46,538 bases of DNA, from NCBI GenBank assembly GCA_023131835.1, contig JAGLZA010000084.1:1-46538 (forward strand), in the 5' to 3' direction. The first letter of the stretch is position 1. Each line of letters opens with the position of its first letter. Source of the stretch: Caldifarciminota bacterium (GTDB lineage: Bacteria > Hydrothermota > UBA3072). Positions 24,624 to 38,165 of the stretch are shown piece by piece. The notes beneath the pieces were generated by a model. The model saw nothing but the letters and a program-made list of their open reading frames with translations, had not been told where the DNA came from and did no database searches. The translations under genes were made by a program, and so were the position numbers.

Positions 24624-25285
24624 TCCTCTCCTAAAATATTTACAATCTTCTTAAAAACCTTTCTAATCTCATTCCCCTTACTGGCATAGAGAGTTCCTTT
24701 CTTATATAGTATAATAAGTCTAAGAGAAGATGTTCCAAACACCAATATGTTTCCTCCAGGCAATTCAAGAAAAATATTCCTTAAGTCACCCATACTAAGT
24801 TCTATAAAAGTATCTTCTATCTTTTTATATATAGAAGAGATTACAACTCCGGTATCATCCTCATTAAGGGGTAACTTTAACTCCGCCAGTATTGGAGATC
24901 CAACCTCGTCAACGAGTATAATCCCCAAAATACCCTGGATTTTTAATAGTGTATCCATTTCTCTTTTTAATAGATCGTCCAGCGATACAGTTTCTTCTTC
25001 TTCTTTTTTTACCCCAATGGACTCAAACATATTTTGCAAGTTCTTATTCCTAGGATCGATCCGCTCTGCCTTACTCAACACCTCTAATGCCATATCTGTG
25101 TTGCCCTCTTCTATATAGATACTTCCAAGTTGAAGATAAGGCTCTATCACACCCTTGTTTTGTTTTATGGCTGTTTCAAGTAGTCCTTTTGCTTCCTTAA
25201 TTAAACCGTTCTCTATATATAGATCCGCAAGGGAAATGAGAACTTCCACTGAACTAGCATCACTTCGAAGACCATCTTGATTCAT
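24620..25285 (-). CDS. TPR plus Roadblock/LC7 fusion protein
   Basis: 221 residues. The first 90 hold two TPR units (SLADLYIENGLIKEAKGLLE, LQLGSIYIEEGNTDMALEVL). After a short Glu-rich linker, residues about 105-221 form a Roadblock domain: LLKIQGILGIILVDEVGSPI, then GGNILVFGTSSLRLIILY. The fusion places a protein-interaction module on an MglB-like fold. Overlaps of 4 bases on both sides with the DUF4388 gene and the next Roadblock gene show tight operon structure. Confidence 0.75.
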   Translation of the reverse strand: MNQDGLRSDASSVEVLISLADLYIENGLIKEAKGLLETAIKQNKGVIEPYLQLGSIYIEEGNTDMALEVLSKAERIDPRNKNLQNMFESIGVKKEEEETVSLDDLLKREMDTLLKIQGILGIILVDEVGSPILAELKLPLNEDDTGVVISSIYKKIEDTFIELSMGDLRNIFLELPGGNILVFGTSSLRLIILYKKGTLYASKGNEIRKVFKKIVNILGED

Positions 25286-26295
25286 ATAAACACCTCTCGA
25301 TTTGAAATTCTCTTTTGTAACTCTTTGACCATTTCAAGATTCTCTCCTATCTCCTTTTTTCGCTCATTATCATCAGATAAAAGAATAAATACATTCCATT
25401 CAGCTATAGCTTCACTATATTTACCAATAGCAAGATAATAGTATCCTAATTCATAAATTATCCTCGGATCATTTGGATACATCCCCTTCAAAGATCGAAG
25501 TACCTTGAGCCCTTCTTCATACTGTCCCTTTTTCCATCTTCGAGAAGTCTCTTTTATCTTGATATCCACTTCCTTTTCTATACCCTCCTTTCCTTGTATG
25601 AAATCATCTATCTCTATCCTTTTCTCGGTAATGATTCCCGTCATAATCATTCCATAAAGCGATTTCAGAACAGCAAAATCCTCACCAATTTCCGAAATAA
25701 GGTCAGCAATAGTTCGTTGTCCGTTTAAAAGAGATAAGATCTTCCATTCCATTGGATCGAGATTGATTGTATCTTTTTCGCTTATATCAGAAGAAACCTC
25801 CAGAATTATATCACGAGAAGAGATAGTCTCCTTCATCTTCGATATTTCATCCATCCTTCTTGCAGCTTCCATAATTATATTTTCAATCCTCATCTCAAGA
25901 TCCAGAGATTCTGGAATATCAAAATCGACTTCCTGAAAACTGAAATATCCTGCCGTGATAGAAAAGAGAGAGTATATCACCTCCTCAGCAACCTGCTTGA
26001 AAAACACACTGAAGGTATTGGGAGTCATTAATCTTTTTTCAAGGATATAATCTATTAATTCATCTCCCTTTATAGAGGCAACATCACTCTCTTCCATAAG
26101 ATCCCGTTTACAAAACTCTCTCTTAAGTCTATTTGTAATATCAATATAAGAAAGACAACCTTTCTGAAAGTAAAGGATGTATTTCTTACCGGATACATTA
26201 TCATTTAAATCTAATATCCCACGTTTATCAGTAAGTGATATCAACTGAAATAAATCAAAAAGTCCCAAATCCTCAATGGGTGCTTCAATAGGCAT
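25282..26295 (-). CDS. DUF4388 (PATAN-type) protein with C-terminal TPR
   Basis: 337 residues. The first ~140 match the DUF4388/PATAN type: GLFDLFQLISLTDKRGIL, then YILYFQKGCLSYIDI, and GDELIDYILEKRLMT. The domain occurs in two-component and gliding or pili-control proteins of delta-proteobacteria and Thermus. Residues about 180-235 look like a winged-helix-like module (WKILSLLNGQRTIADLISEI). The last 80 hold one or two TPR units. Start overlaps the TPR gene's stop by 1 base (TAATG). Likely an adaptor or output partner of the chemosensory array, which is inference. Confidence 0.75.
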   Translation of the reverse strand: MPIEAPIEDLGLFDLFQLISLTDKRGILDLNDNVSGKKYILYFQKGCLSYIDITNRLKREFCKRDLMEESDVASIKGDELIDYILEKRLMTPNTFSVFFKQVAEEVIYSLFSITAGYFSFQEVDFDIPESLDLEMRIENIIMEAARRMDEISKMKETISSRDIILEVSSDISEKDTINLDPMEWKILSLLNGQRTIADLISEIGEDFAVLKSLYGMIMTGIITEKRIEIDDFIQGKEGIEKEVDIKIKETSRRWKKGQYEEGLKVLRSLKGMYPNDPRIIYELGYYYLAIGKYSEAIAEWNVFILLSDDNERKKEIGENLEMVKELQKRISNREVFI

Positions 26296-28934: not shown

Positions 28935-29552
28935 TTATAGTAATTTTAAAGCTTTCAACATAGTGGATAACCCTTCAGCATCAGGTATCAACAGCAAAAA
29001 GGCTTCGAGTTCGCTCTTTGGCTCATTGAATTTAAAATGAGTCTCAACGCAGAATACATATTCTTCGTCTTCAGAGAACTCCAGATAGACACTGGAAATA
29101 ATCGCTCTAAAATCATCTCTGACAATAACCGGAACCGTCGGCAACAACATTAATCCAAGAAATTCGGAAATAGCGCTTATATATGAACTCGTAATGATAT
29201 TTGCCACCTCTTTTAAGGTTGAAGCCTCCATTTCCTCAAAAACTACATCCTCAGTTGTTTCTCTTCCTAATAATATATTGACCATTATCTTTGCGTCTTC
29301 ATCTCGCATTACAAGAAGATTCCTTCCTGTAACATCTCCAAAGAATTTAGTGAGGGCAGCTACAGTAATATTAACTTTTTCTCCCAATAAAAGAGGGGTA
29401 TTCTCAATCGGAACTACCGTTATTTTGGGCACCTCAACACCCACTTCCCTTCCCAACATCTGGGTTAAGGCTGTTGCAGCATGTCCTCCACCTATGTTTG
29501 CAGCTTCCTTTATCCCGTCTAATTGTATTTCTTCAAGATCCCGTATTTTCAT
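28935..29552 (-). CDS. cheC: CheC-type CheY-P phosphatase
   Basis: 205 residues with two complete copies of the CheC/CheX active-site pattern [DS]-x3-E-x2-N-x22-P. The first is D12, E16, N19, P42. The second is in ASTLKEVANII with its Pro at the exact spacing. CheC dephosphorylates CheY-P and, in some bacteria, binds CheD. No CheD is present in the window. A ribosome site AGGAGGAA precedes the ATG and the gene overlaps the end of cheA by 20 bases. It supplies the reset step for the CheY encoded two genes upstream. Confidence 0.9.
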   Translation of the reverse strand: MKIRDLEEIQLDGIKEAANIGGGHAATALTQMLGREVGVEVPKITVVPIENTPLLLGEKVNITVAALTKFFGDVTGRNLLVMRDEDAKIMVNILLGRETTEDVVFEEMEASTLKEVANIITSSYISAISEFLGLMLLPTVPVIVRDDFRAIISSVYLEFSEDEEYVFCVETHFKFNEPKSELEAFLLLIPDAEGLSTMLKALKLL

Positions 29553-31332
29553 ATTTCCTCCTATATCTAATACCTGGTAAATCCAGTATTAAACATGGCT
29601 CACCATCTCCCACTATAGTAATCCCCGTATACTCCTCTATTGTATTAAGAGGTGCTGGAAGTGGTTTCACCACAACATCCCGACTACCATAAAATTTATC
29701 AACGATGAGGACGAATCTATCATTTTCCACCTCAATCACCATACAGGAAAGATTGGTATTCCTTTTCTCATCATTGTGGATAATCCCCATAACATCAGAA
29801 AGGTGATAAACAGGTAATACACTATTCCTCAATATCATAACCTCCCTTAACATTAAGAAAGATAAAGAAGATTCAGAGAATGTAAATGTTTCGTCAACGA
29901 ATGTCATTGGCAGGGCAAAAAGCCGGCCACCTGCGCCAACAAGATAAACCTTTATTATTGCCATAGAAAGAGGCATCTTCATTGAAACAGTGGTTCCTTT
30001 ATTCTTTTCTGTTAATATATCTACACTACCCCCAACGGAACGTAGCGCCTCTTTAACAACATCCAGACCAATTCCTCGTCCAGAAACCCGACTTACCTCC
30101 TCACTGGTTGTGAATCCAGGTATAAAGAGGAATCTGAGGATTTCTTTTTTTGTAATAGAATCTATTTCTCCTTCCTCTAATAATCCCTTCATATATGCTC
30201 TATGGAGCACTGCTTTTTCATCAATTCCTCTCCCATCATCATTGATCTCTATTAATATATCCCCTTTTACTCTCTTTGCAGTAACTGTTATCTTGCCTAA
30301 AATAGATTTATCCAACATTTTCCTCTCTTCCTGAAACTCGATCCCATGATCAATTGCATTTCGGATAAGATGGATAAGAGGATCACTAATGCCCTCCAGA
30401 AGAGAACGATCAACCTTTATATCTGCACCATGAATATCAATAGACATTTCCTTTCCCAACTTCCCACTTAAATCCCGAACATACCGCGGAAATTTGTTAA
30501 AAATCAATGAAAGAGGAACCAGCCTTACCCTGGCAACAATCTCCTGCAAATCACCAATAGATCTATTGTGAAGTTCAAGAACCTTTTTATGTTTCCTATC
30601 CCCGTCTTCTTTTAACAATGTGGTCAACTGAGAAAAAGAGATAACCAATTCTCCAACGATGTTCTGCAAAAGATCCAGGAGAGCCACATTGACACGAATT
30701 CCACCAGTTCCACTAATAGAAGCCCTTCCTTCCTCTTCTTCTTTTATAATTTTAACCTCTTTTATCCCTTCCATTGTTTCTATCTTCTTCTTTATTATTT
30801 CGGAATTAGAGCATCTAATCCAAAAGATGTCCTCTATCTTTCCCGATTTAATATCCTCATAGGATGGGTTAATCTCCTCAATTACCTGTTCTCTCTCTAT
30901 AGCCTTTATTATGACCATCGCCCTCGCTGCCGGCATTCCAATATCCTCTTCAAGGATTATCTTAATAACAGGGGATTTTGGGGCAGATTTAACCCTATCC
31001 TTTTCAACATCCTTACCTATATTAGATATCAGTTCTTCTATAGCGTCCATTCCTTTGAACACTCTATCAATTAGCTCTTTACTCAATACCTCCCCTGACT
31101 CTTTTACCTTTTCCAGTGTCTCTTCAATCTCATGTGAAATCCTTTCGATCTCTCTATAATTCAACGTAGCAGACATACCTTTAATCGTATGGAATATCCT
31201 GAAAACCTCAGTGAGTATATCTTTATCACCCGGATCTTTCTCCAACTCAATAACCAGAGTACTCAGCCTTTCGAGATATTCACCAGCCTCTTCTTTAAAG
31301 AGATTTACATATCGCTTTATATCATCATGCAT
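29533..31332 (-). CDS. cheA: Chemotaxis histidine kinase CheA
   Basis: 599 residues. Hpt domain with phosphoacceptor H48 in FRIFHTIKGMSA, a P2-like CheY-docking module at about 115-200, a dimerisation helix pair, the HATPase domain with N-box LIHLIRNAIDHGIE, G1 NDDGRGID and G2 GRGIGLDVV, and a C-terminal CheW-like domain. All catalytic motifs are intact. The ATG abuts the cheY stop. It autophosphorylates under receptor control and passes phosphate to the CheY encoded just upstream. No CheB-like target is present. Confidence 0.97.
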   Translation of the reverse strand: MHDDIKRYVNLFKEEAGEYLERLSTLVIELEKDPGDKDILTEVFRIFHTIKGMSATLNYREIERISHEIEETLEKVKESGEVLSKELIDRVFKGMDAIEELISNIGKDVEKDRVKSAPKSPVIKIILEEDIGMPAARAMVIIKAIEREQVIEEINPSYEDIKSGKIEDIFWIRCSNSEIIKKKIETMEGIKEVKIIKEEEEGRASISGTGGIRVNVALLDLLQNIVGELVISFSQLTTLLKEDGDRKHKKVLELHNRSIGDLQEIVARVRLVPLSLIFNKFPRYVRDLSGKLGKEMSIDIHGADIKVDRSLLEGISDPLIHLIRNAIDHGIEFQEERKMLDKSILGKITVTAKRVKGDILIEINDDGRGIDEKAVLHRAYMKGLLEEGEIDSITKKEILRFLFIPGFTTSEEVSRVSGRGIGLDVVKEALRSVGGSVDILTEKNKGTTVSMKMPLSMAIIKVYLVGAGGRLFALPMTFVDETFTFSESSLSFLMLREVMILRNSVLPVYHLSDVMGIIHNDEKRNTNLSCMVIEVENDRFVLIVDKFYGSRDVVVKPLPAPLNTIEEYTGITIVGDGEPCLILDLPGIRYRRKYENTGS

Positions 31333-31698
31333 TTACAGGTTTAAAACCCTTTGGACAGCTTCAAGGACCCGTGATGGTTGAAAAGGCTTCACCACATAAT
31401 CTTTGGCACCCGCTTGAATTGCCTCAACCACCAGACTCTGATGCCCCATTGCCGATACCATTACAATCCTTGCCTCTGGATCTTTCTTTACTATTTCTTT
31501 TACAGCGTCAATTCCACTCATATCAGGCATTATGATATCCATTGTCACAAGATCAGGATTATATTCCATATATTTTTCTACTGCCTCAGATCCATTCCCT
31601 GCCTCAGCGGTAACCTCATACCCTCCCTTTATGAGAATATCCCCTAACATCTTTCTCATAAATATAGCATCATCTACTATCAAAACTTTTACAGCCAT
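31333..31698 (-). CDS. cheY: CheY-type response regulator
   Basis: 121-residue stand-alone receiver: acidic pair D9/D10, phosphoacceptor D54 in VTMDIIMPD, S82 in MVSAM and K104 in VVKPF, the complete active-site set. No output domain, so it should act by binding a target. The target is unknown because no flagellar switch or pilus motor gene is in the window. TTGAGAGAGGAGG-type ribosome site before the ATG. It lies between cheW and cheA. Confidence 0.95.
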   Translation of the reverse strand: MAVKVLIVDDAIFMRKMLGDILIKGGYEVTAEAGNGSEAVEKYMEYNPDLVTMDIIMPDMSGIDAVKEIVKKDPEARIVMVSAMGHQSLVVEAIQAGAKDYVVKPFQPSRVLEAVQRVLNL

Positions 31699-31714: not shown

Positions 31715-32119
31715 TCAAATTAATTCATCCACATTAATTATTATATATTTTATCTCCCCAATTTGGACAATGCCTTTCAGATATCTGGATTCAATATCTT
31801 CTTCCAAACTGGATGGAACATCCTTAAAAGCATCAGTAGAAAATTTATGAATAGTAAGGATCTGGTCGGGCCGAAGGCCTACTACCGAATCTTTTATATA
31901 ACAGAGTATTATATCATTGGATGTTGAATTATCCTTAAAACCGAGTTTCTTCTTTATATCAACGATAGGTATAGGATCACCACGAAGGTTCATAACGCCA
32001 TCTATATATTTTTGAGCCAACGGAACAGGGGTAATTGTTACACCTTCTACAATCTCTTTAACGCTATATAGAGAAACACCAAAGAACTTTTCATCCAGGG
32101 TAAAACTCAATATTTCCAT
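31715..32119 (-). CDS. cheW: CheW receptor-kinase coupling protein
   Basis: 134 residues from the ATG at 32119, chosen because it directly follows the upstream stop (TAA, one base, ATG), has GGGAG upstream, and gives the usual CheW opening MEILSFTLDEKFFGV. The upstream in-frame ATG at 32143 lacks a ribosome site. Seen: YSVKEIVEGVTITPVP, VMNLRGDPIPIVDIKKKLG and GLRPDQILTI, the classic SH3-like double barrel. It should link the soluble receptor to CheA. Confidence 0.93.
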   Translation of the reverse strand: MEILSFTLDEKFFGVSLYSVKEIVEGVTITPVPLAQKYIDGVMNLRGDPIPIVDIKKKLGFKDNSTSNDIILCYIKDSVVGLRPDQILTIHKFSTDAFKDVPSSLEEDIESRYLKGIVQIGEIKYIIINVDELI

Positions 32120-32120
32120 C

Positions 32121-35100
32121 TTATTCAACTCCCACCCATTCATAATGTGGACAACCCAATAGATCAGGCTTAAATCCGAATATATTGGATCTAACCAGTA
32201 AAAAATTGTCAGAATGCGTAAGGAAAACCCAGGGTGCTTCTTCTACTATCATCCGCTCTGTTCTCCGGTAGAGTTTATCTCTTTTTATTGGATTTGCCTC
32301 TCTTATCCCCTTTTCTATCAGTCTATCAATATCCTTGTTGGAAAAGAATGTAGTATTCCCCCCTATTGCTATATTAGAAGAATGAAAGATAGGGAAGAGA
32401 AAAGTATTGGGATCTCCAGTGTCTGCAATCCATCCAAGCAAGAACATCTGAGTTTCTCCCTTATGTGCCTTCTTCAGGAATTCTTTCCAGGTATACTTTT
32501 CTATCTCTATATTCACTCCAATCTCAGCAAAAGAGCCTTTAAGGAATTCTGCTCTTCTAATATTGGATTCTGATTCACTAATTGCTATACTATAAACATC
32601 AGGTAGACCATTCGGATAACCAGCTTCTTTCAATAGATTCCTTGCCTTCTGTGGATTATACTCATAACCCTTTAGGTTAGGGTCGTATACAGAGAGACCC
32701 GGTGGAAATATCCCTCGCGCTATTGTCCCAAAACCAGAAAGGGTCTCTCCTATTAAAGCCTTTTTATCAACAGCATAATTCATAGCCTGCCGCACCCTCT
32801 TATCCATAAATGGCATATCTTCTCGTTTGAAATTAAAACCCAAATAATTAACATTCAAATACTCAGAACGGATAAGGCATTTTTGAATCTGTGTGTCTTT
32901 CTGAATCTTTGATATATCATCCAGGGAGATTACAGTTATATCGACCTCCTTATCCTTAAATGCCTCCAATCCATTTTCTATTTCTTTGAACATCAGACGG
33001 GAAACAAAGGGTTTGCCCATGATATAATCAGAATTAGATTCCAGCACGAGCTCCTCTTTTTCCCTCCGTTCAACAAATTTAAATGGACCCACACCCTGGG
33101 GGTCATTTTTAAAATCGCCTTCATAATCCTTAGAGAGAATGGATCCACCAATTGTTGCAAGATTTATAATGAAAGGCATATATGAATCCTTTAACCTTAT
33201 ATAGATATCACGCGAACTTCCCACCCTTATCGTATCGACTGAATCAAGTATAAATTTATTTACCCTATTTTTAACCCTCTCAAGGGAATATTTCACATCC
33301 TCAGCATCTATTTTCCTTCCACTATGGGTTAACACATTATCCTTGATTCTAAAATGCCATTCCATTGCATCATCAGAGAGGGTCCATTCCTCAACAAGCA
33401 AAGGATAGACTTTCCCTGAAAAACCAAAATCAAAAAGTCCCCGATAGATATTATGTGCTACTCTGTTAGAAACAGCATCACCAATCAGGGCAGGATCCAG
33501 AGTTAGCGGAAATCTGGGGATAGACACTCTCAACTCTGAATACTTCTCTTTCGGGATAATATTAAAAGATTGTAAATCCGACATAATCACATTCATCAGA
33601 TCTCTTTCATCAGCCATTTCATCTTCCAGATCACATATTATCTCTATATTTTTATCGCTTGTCTCGGTTATCTTATAGTATAAATCAGCAATTTCGGAAA
33701 CTATCTTTTTTTGTTCCACCATAGAGACCCGAATACCTTTAGCAGCCTCTGTTAGATATTTTGTCTGATCTACGTTTTCCTTAAATATATTCTCTCCTTC
33801 AAGAACAATATCTTTAATACGAATAATTATTCCAGTGAGTTTAACAACTAATTTATCCAATTCCCTGATTTCGTTATTTACGGGGTCAAAAAAACTCCAC
33901 ACCTCTTCTGCTATAAGTGAATATTCGCCAGATAAGGATTGCATCTCATTTGCTATTACCTCAAGTCCTACAGACTCACTTTGAACCCTCGCAGATTCTA
34001 TCTTTCCATAAAGAGAGAGTACCCTCGCCTGGTCTGACAGATCATTAGCCATTTCCACTGTTCTGCCCAGATTGGCAGAAATAGAAGATAGATTCTTCTG
34101 CATACTGGTAACCTCTTCCATTTCTCCAATTTCCCTCTCAAGAAAAGACCTCAGCCTCCCAATATTATCTACCCCTTCTTGCGACTTCTCAACCGTATAT
34201 CTAATAACATCCTCAATCTCTTTTATCTCAACACCAATCCCTTTTAACATCTCCTGTATTTCCTGTATTTCTTTCAACTCTAATTCTCCCTGAATTTGCT
34301 CTTCTTTTAGTTTTTTAATAGCTGACCAACTCTTCTGGCTCAAAAAAAGCATTGTCTTTAGGGTTAAATCTAAATGTGTTAGATTCCTGGCAAAATCGGG
34401 AGATTCCTTTTCGAGAAGAAACCGGTGGATATCTGTGTGATGCTCCATTACCTTACCTGTTGCCTCTTTTTGTTCTAACATCAGATTAATCCTGCCGGCC
34501 TTAAATGTAGATATCCTGGACAAGGATAATAACGATTTAGTGGTAATATCAATATTATGTCTTTTCTTGTTTATGTTTTCCAGTAAGTCGAGGAGCTTGT
34601 CTGTTATGTTGTTTATTTTTAAAAACTTATCCTTGAGTTCATTAGAACTAAGGTCCAGTTGCTCGGTGATTGTTTCGAATCGGGAAAGTGTTTCTTGTAT
34701 GTTTTTGAACCGATCCATTACCTTCTTTGATTCATCCCTGAGGGATTCAAGTAATTCCACCATAGTATTTACCATATATAGAGATTTCTCTGTCAACTTA
34801 CTCAGCTCATTAGCCACAACCTCAAAACCTTTTCCGGAAGCCCCTGCCTTATAGGCCTTAATTTCAGCATTCCTTGCAGTATTAGCAGAAACCTGGTTTA
34901 GATCTGAAAGTTTATCTACTATGACATCTATCGACTCTCTCGTACCCATTAGTGCTTCAAGTTTTTTACTGGTGTCGTTGGTAATATTAAGAAAATCTAC
35001 AGTTTTTTCCTGGATATCTTCAGAAAGACTTAAAACAAAAGAAAGTAACTCCTCGCTTTTCATAATGGTTGTGCTAAAACTATCAGAAGCCTCCGCAATA

Positions 35101-35273
35101 ACTGCCATAGCAGCATAGAGATTCTTTATTTTTTCCCTTATGTCCTCCAGAACCTCCGCATACTTTATTTGTTTATTAGAAACTTCTCTTAACAGTGAAT
35201 AAATACCGCTAGTTGTTTTTTTTAACTTTTTAACTTTTCCGATAAGACCTTTATCCTCTTCTGCTCTCACCAT
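32121..35273 (-). CDS. Soluble chemoreceptor fused to a family-5 solute-binding domain
   Basis: 1050 residues from the ATG at 35273; the earlier TTG at 35288 lies upstream of the likely transcription start. Residues about 10-330 form long helices with an MCP signalling tip (AEIKAYKAGASGKGFEVVA, about 136-154). A second, more diverged MCP-like hairpin follows (GKIESARVQ and EVIANEM, about 423-444). From about 578 to the end is a full SBP_bac_5 domain of DppA/OppA type: SIPRFPLTLDPALIGD, NIYRGLFDFGF, MEWHFRIKDNVLTHSGR, AMNYAVDKKALI. There is no signal peptide or membrane helix, so a normally periplasmic ligand domain seems to sit in the cytoplasm next to the receptor tip. First gene of the che operon. 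It probably senses an internal peptide or nickel-type ligand, which is inference. Confidence 0.9.
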   Translation of the reverse strand: MVRAEEDKGLIGKVKKLKKTTSGIYSLLREVSNKQIKYAEVLEDIREKIKNLYAAMAVIAEASDSFSTTIMKSEELLSFVLSLSEDIQEKTVDFLNITNDTSKKLEALMGTRESIDVIVDKLSDLNQVSANTARNAEIKAYKAGASGKGFEVVANELSKLTEKSLYMVNTMVELLESLRDESKKVMDRFKNIQETLSRFETITEQLDLSSNELKDKFLKINNITDKLLDLLENINKKRHNIDITTKSLLSLSRISTFKAGRINLMLEQKEATGKVMEHHTDIHRFLLEKESPDFARNLTHLDLTLKTMLFLSQKSWSAIKKLKEEQIQGELELKEIQEIQEMLKGIGVEIKEIEDVIRYTVEKSQEGVDNIGRLRSFLEREIGEMEEVTSMQKNLSSISANLGRTVEMANDLSDQARVLSLYGKIESARVQSESVGLEVIANEMQSLSGEYSLIAEEVWSFFDPVNNEIRELDKLVVKLTGIIIRIKDIVLEGENIFKENVDQTKYLTEAAKGIRVSMVEQKKIVSEIADLYYKITETSDKNIEIICDLEDEMADERDLMNVIMSDLQSFNIIPKEKYSELRVSIPRFPLTLDPALIGDAVSNRVAHNIYRGLFDFGFSGKVYPLLVEEWTLSDDAMEWHFRIKDNVLTHSGRKIDAEDVKYSLERVKNRVNKFILDSVDTIRVGSSRDIYIRLKDSYMPFIINLATIGGSILSKDYEGDFKNDPQGVGPFKFVERREKEELVLESNSDYIMGKPFVSRLMFKEIENGLEAFKDKEVDITVISLDDISKIQKDTQIQKCLIRSEYLNVNYLGFNFKREDMPFMDKRVRQAMNYAVDKKALIGETLSGFGTIARGIFPPGLSVYDPNLKGYEYNPQKARNLLKEAGYPNGLPDVYSIAISESESNIRRAEFLKGSFAEIGVNIEIEKYTWKEFLKKAHKGETQMFLLGWIADTGDPNTFLFPIFHSSNIAIGGNTTFFSNKDIDRLIEKGIREANPIKRDKLYRRTERMIVEEAPWVFLTHSDNFLLVRSNIFGFKPDLLGCPHYEWVGVE

Positions 35274-35570: not shown

Positions 35571-36914
35571 ATGATGAAAGGTAAAAAAGACCTAATCGAT
35601 AACTTTAACTGGAAAAAAATAAAAGGGTATCTACAAGAAGATATAAATGAATCTGCATTTAACGCCTGGTTTGCGAATGTAGATGTAGAAGCAGTAGAAG
35701 AAAATGATGTCTACTTTACAGTCCCAAACACATTTACAGAAAATTGGATAAGTGAACATTTTTTGGACAATCTTAAATCCTCGATAAAAAAAGCAACTAC
35801 CCAAAACTATAAAATTCATTTCCTTGTGAAACAAAAAAAAGAAATACAAACTCCAAGCCTATTAGATATAAGGGAGTCATCAATTGAAAGGAAAACTTTA
35901 TTACACGACAGATATACCTTTTCCTCTTTCGTAGTAGGTGATAATAATAAATTTGCTTATGCTGCAGCCACTGCAGTTGCAAATGCTCCTGGACGTGAAT
36001 ATAATCCTCTTTTTATCTATGGAGGAGTTGGGCTTGGTAAAACTCACCTACTACAAGCAATAGGAAATAAGGTCTACAAAGAGTATGCAAATCTTCACAT
36101 CCTCTATACCCAGGCAGAAGAATTTTTAAACGAGATGATCAAATCTATTCAGGAACATTCCACTGTTGAGTTCAAAAAAAGGTATCGTGAGATTGATCTT
36201 CTTCTTATAGATGATATACATTTCTTAGCAAGAAAAGAACGTCTACAGGAAGAGTTCTTTCATACCTTCAATGCACTCTTTGAAGCAAAAAAACAGATTG
36301 TCATCTCTTCAGATAGACCACCCCAGGAGATTCCTGATCTTCAAGAGCGATTGATATCTCGATTCCATTGGGGACTCACGGTTGATTTACAACCACCAGG
36401 TTTTGAAACTCGCCTCGCCATCCTTCGTGCAAAAACACAAGTGGATGAGATTCATATTGACGATAAAATCCTTGAATATATAGCCTCAAACATACATTCA
36501 AACATAAGAGAATTAGAGGGATGTTTAATAAAACTATTGGCTCATGCTTCTATATATAAAACCGATATTGATATAGAAACAGCAAAAAGGGTTTTATCGG
36601 ATATTGTTCCCGATAAGAATAAAAAACCTACTCCTGCAAGGATATTAAAGGAAGTGTCGCAATTCTATAATATTCCAGTAGCCGATATAAAGGGTAATGA
36701 AAGATCAAAAAGTATTGTGCGCGCTCGACAGGTGGCAGTTTACCTGATAAGACAAATAACCTCTCTATCCCTTAAGGAGATCGGAAGATATCTGGGAGGA
36801 AAAGATCATTCAACCATCCTTTACACTTACAGGAAGATTGATAATCTAATAAAGAAAAATGTGGAAATAAAGGGGGATATCCTGAAGATAAAAGATATCC
36901 TTAAAGGTTCCTAA
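35571..36914 (+). CDS. dnaA: Chromosomal replication initiator DnaA
   Basis: 447 residues. Domain I (about 8-85, DnaB/HobA-type interactions), a short domain II linker (86-110), AAA+ domain III with Walker A GGVGLGKT (151-158), Walker B LLLIDDIHF and sensor RLISRFHWG, and domain IV with SIVRARQVAVYLIR and the DnaA signature GGKDHSTILYTYRKI. Full length for the family with a short linker. Two ATGs in tandem open the frame; either may be used. Followed by a box-bearing spacer and dnaN in the usual order. Confidence 0.98.
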   Translation: MMKGKKDLIDNFNWKKIKGYLQEDINESAFNAWFANVDVEAVEENDVYFTVPNTFTENWISEHFLDNLKSSIKKATTQNYKIHFLVKQKKEIQTPSLLDIRESSIERKTLLHDRYTFSSFVVGDNNKFAYAAATAVANAPGREYNPLFIYGGVGLGKTHLLQAIGNKVYKEYANLHILYTQAEEFLNEMIKSIQEHSTVEFKKRYREIDLLLIDDIHFLARKERLQEEFFHTFNALFEAKKQIVISSDRPPQEIPDLQERLISRFHWGLTVDLQPPGFETRLAILRAKTQVDEIHIDDKILEYIASNIHSNIRELEGCLIKLLAHASIYKTDIDIETAKRVLSDIVPDKNKKPTPARILKEVSQFYNIPVADIKGNERSKSIVRARQVAVYLIRQITSLSLKEIGRYLGGKDHSTILYTYRKIDNLIKKNVEIKGDILKIKDILKGS

Positions 36915-37073
36915 AATGAAAAACATAGATTATTCACCACTTATACACAGGTTTATAAATAAAAAATTTGTAGGTTTTTATAGTATCCATAAATACAACC
37001 AGACTTCTCCACTTTTTCACATCCGACACTACTTCTACTATAAAATAAAATGTTTTAATATAAATAATAAGAC
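36915..37073. other. Candidate replication origin between dnaA and dnaN
   Basis: A 170-base AT-rich spacer. DnaA-box-like sites: TTATTCACC (36930-36938, one mismatch to TTATNCACA), TTATACACA (36941-36949, exact) and TTTTTCACA (37013-37021, matches TTWTNCACA). Long A/T runs lie between and after them. A 61-codon open frame here (36916-37101) is not gene-like. Several bacteria place an origin or a sub-origin in this spacer. Confidence 0.5.
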
Positions 37074-37085
37074 AGGAGGAAAAAT

Positions 37086-38165
37086 ATGTTATTTAAAGTA
37101 GAAACCGAAGATTTTTTAAAGGACTTAAGTTCGGTTATTCAGATTATCCCTAAACACACAACTTTTCCTATACTCTCAAATATTCGTATAGAAGCAGTGA
37201 ATAAAAAAATCTGTGTTTTTGGAACGGATCTTGACACATCAATTAGTTATACAACAAACCTTGTTGATATAGAAGAAGATGGGATAATGGTAATTCCTGC
37301 AAAGACTCTTTATTCGATGATGAGAGAAATAAAGGGTAAAACTACATTTACGAAAGAAGAAAGTAAGGTCAAAGTAGAATATTCTCATGGGTATTTCTTT
37401 TTACCTTTGATAGAAGAAGAGGATTTTCCTTTAGAACCTGAGATAAAAAAAGAAGATGCATGGAAGATCAATACAAAAGAGATTAAGGAATCTATTGATA
37501 AATTACTCTTTATTGTCCCTGAAGATTCTGCAAAGAGAAACATGAGTGGAATGCTATGGGAATATTCTGATGGTGTATTAAAGATGGTTGCAACTGATAG
37601 TTTTAGATTGGGTTACAAAGAGATAAAAATTGATTTTGGTGAAGAATCTTTCAGGGTGGTTATACCACCTAAGATATTAAAACAGGTCTCTTTTAGTGAA
37701 AGCAAAGAAATGTGGGTAGGAGTAGATGAAAGCCGTATCTATTATATTGGAGATAGGTTTACGATGGTTTCGAGGTTGATAAAGGTAGATTTTCCCAATT
37801 ATCAATCTGCTATACCAGAAGATAACAATAATATATTAAACATAAAAAAAGATTCTCTTATTTCTTCCCTGAGAAGAATTTCGGTATTCTCTGACGATAA
37901 GAACAAAACCGTAATATTGAATATAGGGCAAGATATTTCTCTTGGAATCTCTTCAGAGATAGGAGAAGGAAAAGAGGAATTAAAGGGAGAATATAATGGA
38001 GATGAAATAACAATTGCTTTATCTGCTTCTTATCTTATAGAAATCCTTCATAAAATAGATAGCAATGATGTAGTCTTGCGCTTTGGAAAAACTAACACAC
38101 CATTTTTGATAGAAGGAGAGAAGAAAGATACCCTGTATATATTGATGCCTGTGGTAATGGAGTAA
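37086..38165 (+). CDS. dnaN: DNA polymerase III beta subunit (sliding clamp)
   Basis: 359 residues, three clamp domains: opening MLFKVETEDFLKDLSSVIQI, then KHTTFPILSNIRIEA, GTDLDTSI, mid-domain VATDSFRLGYKEI, and C-terminal LYILMPVV ending one residue after the usual MP(V/M)R position (MPVVME). AGGAGG at 37074-37079 precedes the ATG by 6 bases. It tethers the polymerase to DNA. The canonical Arg of the MPMR end is replaced by Val, a conservative quirk. Confidence 0.97.
   Translation: MLFKVETEDFLKDLSSVIQIIPKHTTFPILSNIRIEAVNKKICVFGTDLDTSISYTTNLVDIEEDGIMVIPAKTLYSMMREIKGKTTFTKEESKVKVEYSHGYFFLPLIEEEDFPLEPEIKKEDAWKINTKEIKESIDKLLFIVPEDSAKRNMSGMLWEYSDGVLKMVATDSFRLGYKEIKIDFGEESFRVVIPPKILKQVSFSESKEMWVGVDESRIYYIGDRFTMVSRLIKVDFPNYQSAIPEDNNNILNIKKDSLISSLRRISVFSDDKNKTVILNIGQDISLGISSEIGEGKEELKGEYNGDEITIALSASYLIEILHKIDSNDVVLRFGKTNTPFLIEGEKKDTLYILMPVVME

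Follow-up and report, generated by a model that had tools for sequence, protein, structure and literature searches.

The window analysed here, a stretch of 46,538 nucleotides, encodes a chemoreceptor in which two different MCP-type signalling hairpins are joined, within a single open reading frame, to a complete solute-binding domain of family 5 (SBP_bac_5). The protein carries neither export signals nor membrane helices, its layout is conserved across distant relatives, and its gene heads a chemosensory operon and accompanies CheA through the phylum. With moderate confidence we interpret it as a soluble cytoplasmic chemoreceptor, the fixed partner of a single CheA, which senses an internal solute and controls type IV pili. 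The features are collected in Table 1.

Table 1. Features of the receptor gene and of its operon (positions in the window; residue numbers refer to the receptor)
Feature	Position	Strand	Basis or remark
Double-hairpin chemoreceptor with SBP_bac_5, 1050 aa	32121..35273	-	Frame, Pfam, AF2
Hairpin 1 (PF00015), residues 2-288	34410..35270	-	Pfam, genome scan, structure match, AF2
Tip 1, residues 134-154, family motif RNAxIxA[YF]xAGxxGxGFxVxA	34812..34874	-	Invariant columns
Inter-hairpin loop, residues 289-293	34395..34409	-	Midway between tips; AF2
Hairpin 2 (PF00015), residues 294-567	33573..34394	-	Genome scan, hhalign, AF2
Tip 2, residues 420-447, family motif LSLYxxIEAAR	33933..34016	-	Invariant columns
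SBP_bac_5 domain, residues 580-1050, DppA/GbpA-like fold	32124..33536	-	Pfam, sequence, AF2, Foldseek
Asp951	32421..32423	-	Aligned with DppA Asp408 (peptide amine anchor); invariant, 29/29
cheW	31715..32119	-	Likely start one base past receptor stop; longest frame 31715-32143
cheY (response regulator receiver)	31333..31698	-	Pfam
cheA	29533..31332	-	Only CheA found in the source genome
cheC/cheX-type phosphatase	28935..29552	-	Pfam
TPR protein, 879 aa	26295..28934	-	Operon-conserved
DUF4388 (PATAN) + TPR protein	25282..26295	-	Present in most of the operons
TPR protein, 221 aa	24620..25285	-	Operon-conserved

Domain layout of the receptor

The frame runs on the minus strand from an ATG at 35273 to a TAA at 32121-32123. 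In Pfam searches MCPsignal was matched by two stretches (E 2.1e-19) and SBP_bac_5 by residues 621-968 (E 2.9e-75). The SBP_bac_5 match (PF00496) is complete and above the cut-off, covering positions 1-366 of the 368 in the profile with 254 bits. When the hairpins were scored separately in a whole-genome scan, both passed PF00015 (47.1 and 34.8 bits; curated cut-off 34.6 bits). An earlier note on this DNA had read the frame as two MCP-like hairpins followed by a complete C-terminal SBP_bac_5 domain, and the profile matches bear this out. The AF2 model (mean pLDDT 85.9) consists of four long helical arms of about 130-145 amino acids each, with breaks, followed by the SBP fold; the helices span residues 2-142, 144-288, 294-327/334-429 and 437-567.

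The two hairpins and their tips

The best solved match of hairpin 1 is the soluble receptor 3g67 (E 1.3e-5), which we take to be a Thermotoga maritima-type receptor. Among solved structures hairpin 2 weakly matches an aerotaxis receptor (E 6e-4) and Tsr (E 4e-3). The profiles of the two hairpins align end to end with the tips in register (hhalign probability 99.4%, 260 columns), as would be expected from an internal duplication.

In the family alignment, the hairpin region has invariant columns in the two tips only: Arg134, Asn135, Ala136, Ile138, Gly144, Gly147, Gly149, Phe150 and Ala154 in tip 1, and Tyr422, Glu426 and Leu447, with Leu421 nearly invariant, in tip 2. Both tips were compared with the canonical sequence LALNAAxEAARAGExGxGFxVVA, the contact positions being numbered as Leu380, Asn381, Glu385 and Arg388 of Tsr. 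Tip 1 has retained the Asn and the AG..G.GF part; at Leu380, Glu385 and Arg388 it has Arg, Lys (in most members) and mostly His, Lys or Gln, respectively. Tip 2 has retained the Leu, the Glu and, in most members, the Arg; it has Tyr at Asn381, and the glycine part is gone. The two tips thus preserve different parts of the consensus that in the canonical tip makes the CheA/CheW and trimer contacts. The earlier note saw divergence in the second hairpin and thought that it may be a regulatory copy without a signalling role. The complementary loss speaks against this, as an argument rather than a measurement: both tips have diverged, and both contain the most conserved positions of their hairpins.

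Chemoreceptors are taken to be homodimers with the same tip on each subunit. In the model of the present protein the arms are equal and the loop lies midway, which suggests that one chain works as one receptor 'dimer'. The two hairpins would most likely lie side by side with their tips together, giving a dimer with two different tips, and in such a permanent pair each tip could lose a part that the other keeps. A turn at mid-length is favoured by the AF2 helices and by the indels of the family, which are of many sizes and cluster at residues 276-345, around the inter-hairpin loop. An AF2 rerun with the hairpins only gave a pLDDT of 84.3 and a pTM of 0.63. In Foldseek searches the hairpin model returned ordinary chemoreceptor chains and generic coiled coils only, a result that fits a pseudodimer and a rod alike. 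A more far-reaching picture, somewhat less likely than not, is an asymmetric single-chain 'dimer': the two hairpins would form one four-helix bundle, the tips would divide trimer contact and CheA/CheW contact between them, and one cytoplasmic family-5 domain would read an internal amine or peptide and, by way of the CheA that in most carriers is the only one, steer type IV pili.

A different arrangement is offered by DosM (Vibrio cholerae cluster I, F9 class), a soluble cytoplasmic receptor whose two signalling domains lie at opposite ends of a long rod (PMC7534058). On this model two chains would be paired over their full length, with tip 1 and tip 2 at opposite ends, so as to link two layers of CheA/CheW within a cytoplasmic sandwich array, and with the SBP domains in the middle of the rod. 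The break at mid-length is compatible with a rod, and the unlike tips could be two specialised ends. However, 98% of the DosM homologues are without a sensor domain, and they accompany a triple CheW (PMC9321776). This mark of the F9 class was not found in the operon or elsewhere in the source genome, whose four CheW domains each stand single in their frame, one of them inside CheA. Moreover, the clustering of indels of many sizes at the midpoint is loop-like, and each end of a rod would join two identical half-consensus tips; the complementary tip loss is therefore mildly against a rod, where like tips meet. We regard the rod as doubtful.

The solute-binding domain

The closest solved sequence relatives of the SBP domain include HbpA/GbpA, 5u4o and DppA. 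Foldseek returned 5u4o (E 3.6e-34), GbpA with glutathione and DppA, and the domain has the full two-lobe fold. In the alignment to 1dpp, Asp408 of DppA, which anchors the peptide amine, corresponds to Asp951, while the position of Arg355, which anchors the peptide carboxylate in DppA, is occupied by Glu or Asp in most members of the family. The substitutions R383D and D436R of PDB entry 8z1z appear to affect these same two DppA anchor residues, at a constant offset of 28. Because the carboxylate-anchoring Arg is replaced, a plain dipeptide is doubtful as the ligand. Judged from the aligned residues, and speculatively, the ligand might carry an amino group and be something other than a plain dipeptide; as a further speculation, two acidic anchors could suit a ligand that is positively charged at both ends. 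NCBIfam gave a weak match to SgrR.

The loss of one dipeptide anchor could also mean that the domain no longer senses a solute and serves as a structural or protein-docking module, for instance for a TPR or pilus protein, so that its partners tune the receptor; three TPR/PATAN proteins encoded in the operon could be such partners. Yet the domain retains its complete two-lobe fold, and even relatives with about 23% identity have kept the SBP motifs and Asp951. We consider a docking role unlikely.

The relatives contain other SBP_bac_5 matches of about 690 aa, which were set aside on the strength of the case in the source genome (L107:1777-3822, contig C52). This protein is exported and lipoprotein-like, combines SBP_bac_5 with a TonB domain (PF03544) at its C-terminus, and is not a receptor; SBP_bac_5-matching frames of similar length recur in relatives.

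Cytoplasmic location

The highest Kyte-Doolittle mean of the receptor over 19 residues is 1.35, and the N-terminus is charged, with no hydrophobic stretch found. Signal peptide, lipobox and transmembrane helix are absent from the receptor, as they are from nearly all orthologues; the earlier note was right on this point. One orthologue (L016) has a hydrophobic segment (mean 2.01) near the inter-hairpin loop. In its near relative L014 the value is only 1.42, and we therefore read the segment as a packed helix, not as a membrane helix.

Solute-binding proteins are as a rule extracytoplasmic (PMC9602780), which would fit a receptor that is exported and whose SBP domain acts outside the cell. The lack of a hydrophobic N-terminus or membrane helix led us to reject export, and the cytoplasm is where MCP tips and CheW/CheA are located; we regard this explanation as highly improbable.

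Orthologues and pairing with CheA

The layout was found in about 30 independent metagenome-assembled genomes (MAGs), most of them 23-55% identical, and the order hairpin 1, hairpin 2, SBP is kept in about 30 frames of 1040-1140 aa. Although the source genome is a MAG of 537 contigs, an assembly chimera, which the earlier note had named as a danger to its reading, or a mis-called frame is ruled out for practical purposes by these independent assemblies with identical full-length layout and often identical neighbours.

Among 60 genomes of the same phylum 28, including the source genome, have a long co-linear match, with 27-55% identity in the relatives. One further genome (G050) has a 1035-aa frame of which the SBP part alone was aligned. 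The named records with orthologues comprise WOR-3, Stahlbacteria, TA06, some labelled Cloacimonadota, one Edwardsbacteria and one UBP2. The orthologue at L053 has one MCP stretch in Pfam and no profile match to hairpin 2. Two such receptors are present in at least one genome, G016, where a second frame of 1076 aa, matching a hairpin and the SBP domain, lies at G016:C13:5833-8832. Relatives of the receptor were not found on viral contigs.

CheA (PF02895) was detected in 28 of the 60 genomes, in one copy except for two in G017. The receptor is present in all 28 of these genomes; as the genomes are related, these are not 28 independent events, but they cover many families. It is present in one of the 32 genomes without CheA (G025, 77% complete). 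Further MCPs are encoded in the source genome. One has several hydrophobic segments and lies beside cheW genes, another is a GAF receptor whose N-terminal half is hydrophobic, and a third has a canonical tip. The double-hairpin protein is thus not the sole receptor but the one that always accompanies the kinase.

The operon and its likely output

The operon has the order receptor-cheW-cheY-cheA-cheC-TPR-PATAN/TPR-TPR, which is maintained in distant loci (L040, L042, L046 and L049). A PATAN match was not found in the operons of L041, L050, L052 and L054, and a cheW match beside the receptor was not found in, for example, L036, L038, L039, L044 and L047; in some relatives the receptor gene lies away from both cheW and cheA. 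No transporter domains were detected among the scanned operon proteins. This conservation and the linkage to cheW, cheY, cheA and cheC agree with the proposal of the earlier note that a family-5 domain is covalently joined to a cytoplasmic receptor.

On the other side the operon is adjoined by divergent dnaA and dnaN (35571-38165 in the window), an arrangement also seen in L027 and L028. Longer DnaA-like frames (586-665 aa) occur near the receptor gene in L038 (2077-4071), L047 (4119-6113) and L054 (15838-17595).

CheR and CheB of the source genome are encoded away from the receptor operon. They lie in a cluster without CheA (L108:7881-17757, contig C94) that encodes a small GTPase, a DnaA-domain ATPase, a PATAN-TPR protein, CheR, CheD, CheB, a TPR protein, an ExeA-like AAA protein, two CheW and a membrane MCP. 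The GTPase may be MglA-like, to go by weak Ras/Gtr1 matches. Near this cluster, at C94:34745-35773, is pilT. CheR and pilT are 5-8 kb apart on one contig in the source genome and in G001-G009, and pilT adjoins the receptor gene itself in G014 and G019. Of 20 genomes tested, 19 have pilT and 17 PilM. Flagellin and FlhA are absent from the receptor-bearing genomes among these 20; G010 alone has them, and it carries no receptor. Since flagellin and FlhA are missing and pilT is present, in many cases near the CheR cluster or next to the receptor, the system probably acts on twitching motility by type IV pili. In Synechocystis the pilus extension motor PilB is bound by PATAN domains, as summarised in PMC10519157 with reference to Han et al. 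2022.

Proposed mechanism

We infer the following course of signalling. The SBP_bac_5 domain would bind a small cytoplasmic solute that bears an amine, a short peptide or peptide-like molecule being the likeliest candidate, and the adjoining helix 437-567 would carry the closure of the cleft to the tips. These in turn would govern how active the CheA/CheW complex encoded alongside is. CheA would then phosphorylate CheY, which CheC would reset, and the PATAN/TPR proteins together with the MglA-like GTPase may relay the signal to the type IV pili. In this way the receptor probably lets the cell steer its crawling on surfaces by internal sensing.

If this is true, a covalent receptor with two tips would separate the residues of trimer contact from those of kinase coupling. 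A binding protein that serves as an internal sensor and is fixed to a group-wide CheA suggests that surface motility is steered by the internal nutrient state, not by external gradients alone; the solubility of the receptor makes this idea testable.

Comparison with known systems

In the papers searched we found no account of a fusion of PF00015 with PF00496 or of a cytoplasmic SBP_bac_5 MCP, none of the clostridial proteins described below, and no description of the combined layout or of its fixed pairing with CheA. An archaeal survey lists SBP_bac among the ligand-binding domains of chemoreceptors, with no detail (PMC9680633). The remark of the earlier note that it knew of no described system of this layout thus holds for the combination, whereas its parts are known: single-hairpin SBP_bac_5 receptors in clostridia and the double signalling domain of DosM.

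The clostridial proteins are ten frames of about 830 aa with one canonical hairpin and a C-terminal SBP_bac_5 domain, again without a transmembrane helix, in Caloramator, Thermobrachium, Alkalithermobacter and Clostridium tunisiense, some of the carriers, among them Thermobrachium celere, Caloramator and Clostridium tunisiense, being cultured (the frames include those at loci L068, L069, L072, L075, L077, L081, L083 and L093). They differ from the present receptor in their single hairpin, in that a che operon was not found alongside, and in forming a separate clade of the SBP tree. The separate clades disfavour one shared origin; since the tree is unrooted and its sample of standalone SBPs biased towards high scorers, independent fusion in WOR-3 and in clostridia is favoured, not demonstrated.

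Two cytoplasmic proteins show other parts of the proposed scheme. FrzCD, of the Frz system of Myxococcus xanthus, is a cytoplasmic receptor that operates without flagella and acts on the GTPase MglA and on pili, as proposed here; unlike the present receptor it is built with a single hairpin and lacks a solute-binding domain. In the cytoplasmic protein SgrR a family-5-type binding domain serves as the internal sensor, but SgrR is a DNA-binding regulator, not a chemoreceptor. To our knowledge none of the receptors of the Chp and Pix/Pil/Tax systems is a double-hairpin SBP fusion. These systems are CheA pathways that steer twitching, and the pilus motor is a target of PATAN proteins (PMC10519157). 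DppA, GbpA and HbpA are relatives of the C-terminal domain by sequence and fold, but they are exported components of transport systems, whereas the domain described here is cytoplasmic and has the counterpart of DppA Arg355 replaced.

The principle of the fusion is not unique, as the clostridial joining of a hairpin to SBP_bac_5 and the two signalling domains of DosM illustrate. DosM shares with the present receptor a soluble cytoplasmic chain with two signalling domains; the receptor differs in its SBP_bac_5 domain, in its single-domain CheW and CheC, in hosts without flagellar markers and, probably, in a parallel topology in place of the DosM rod.
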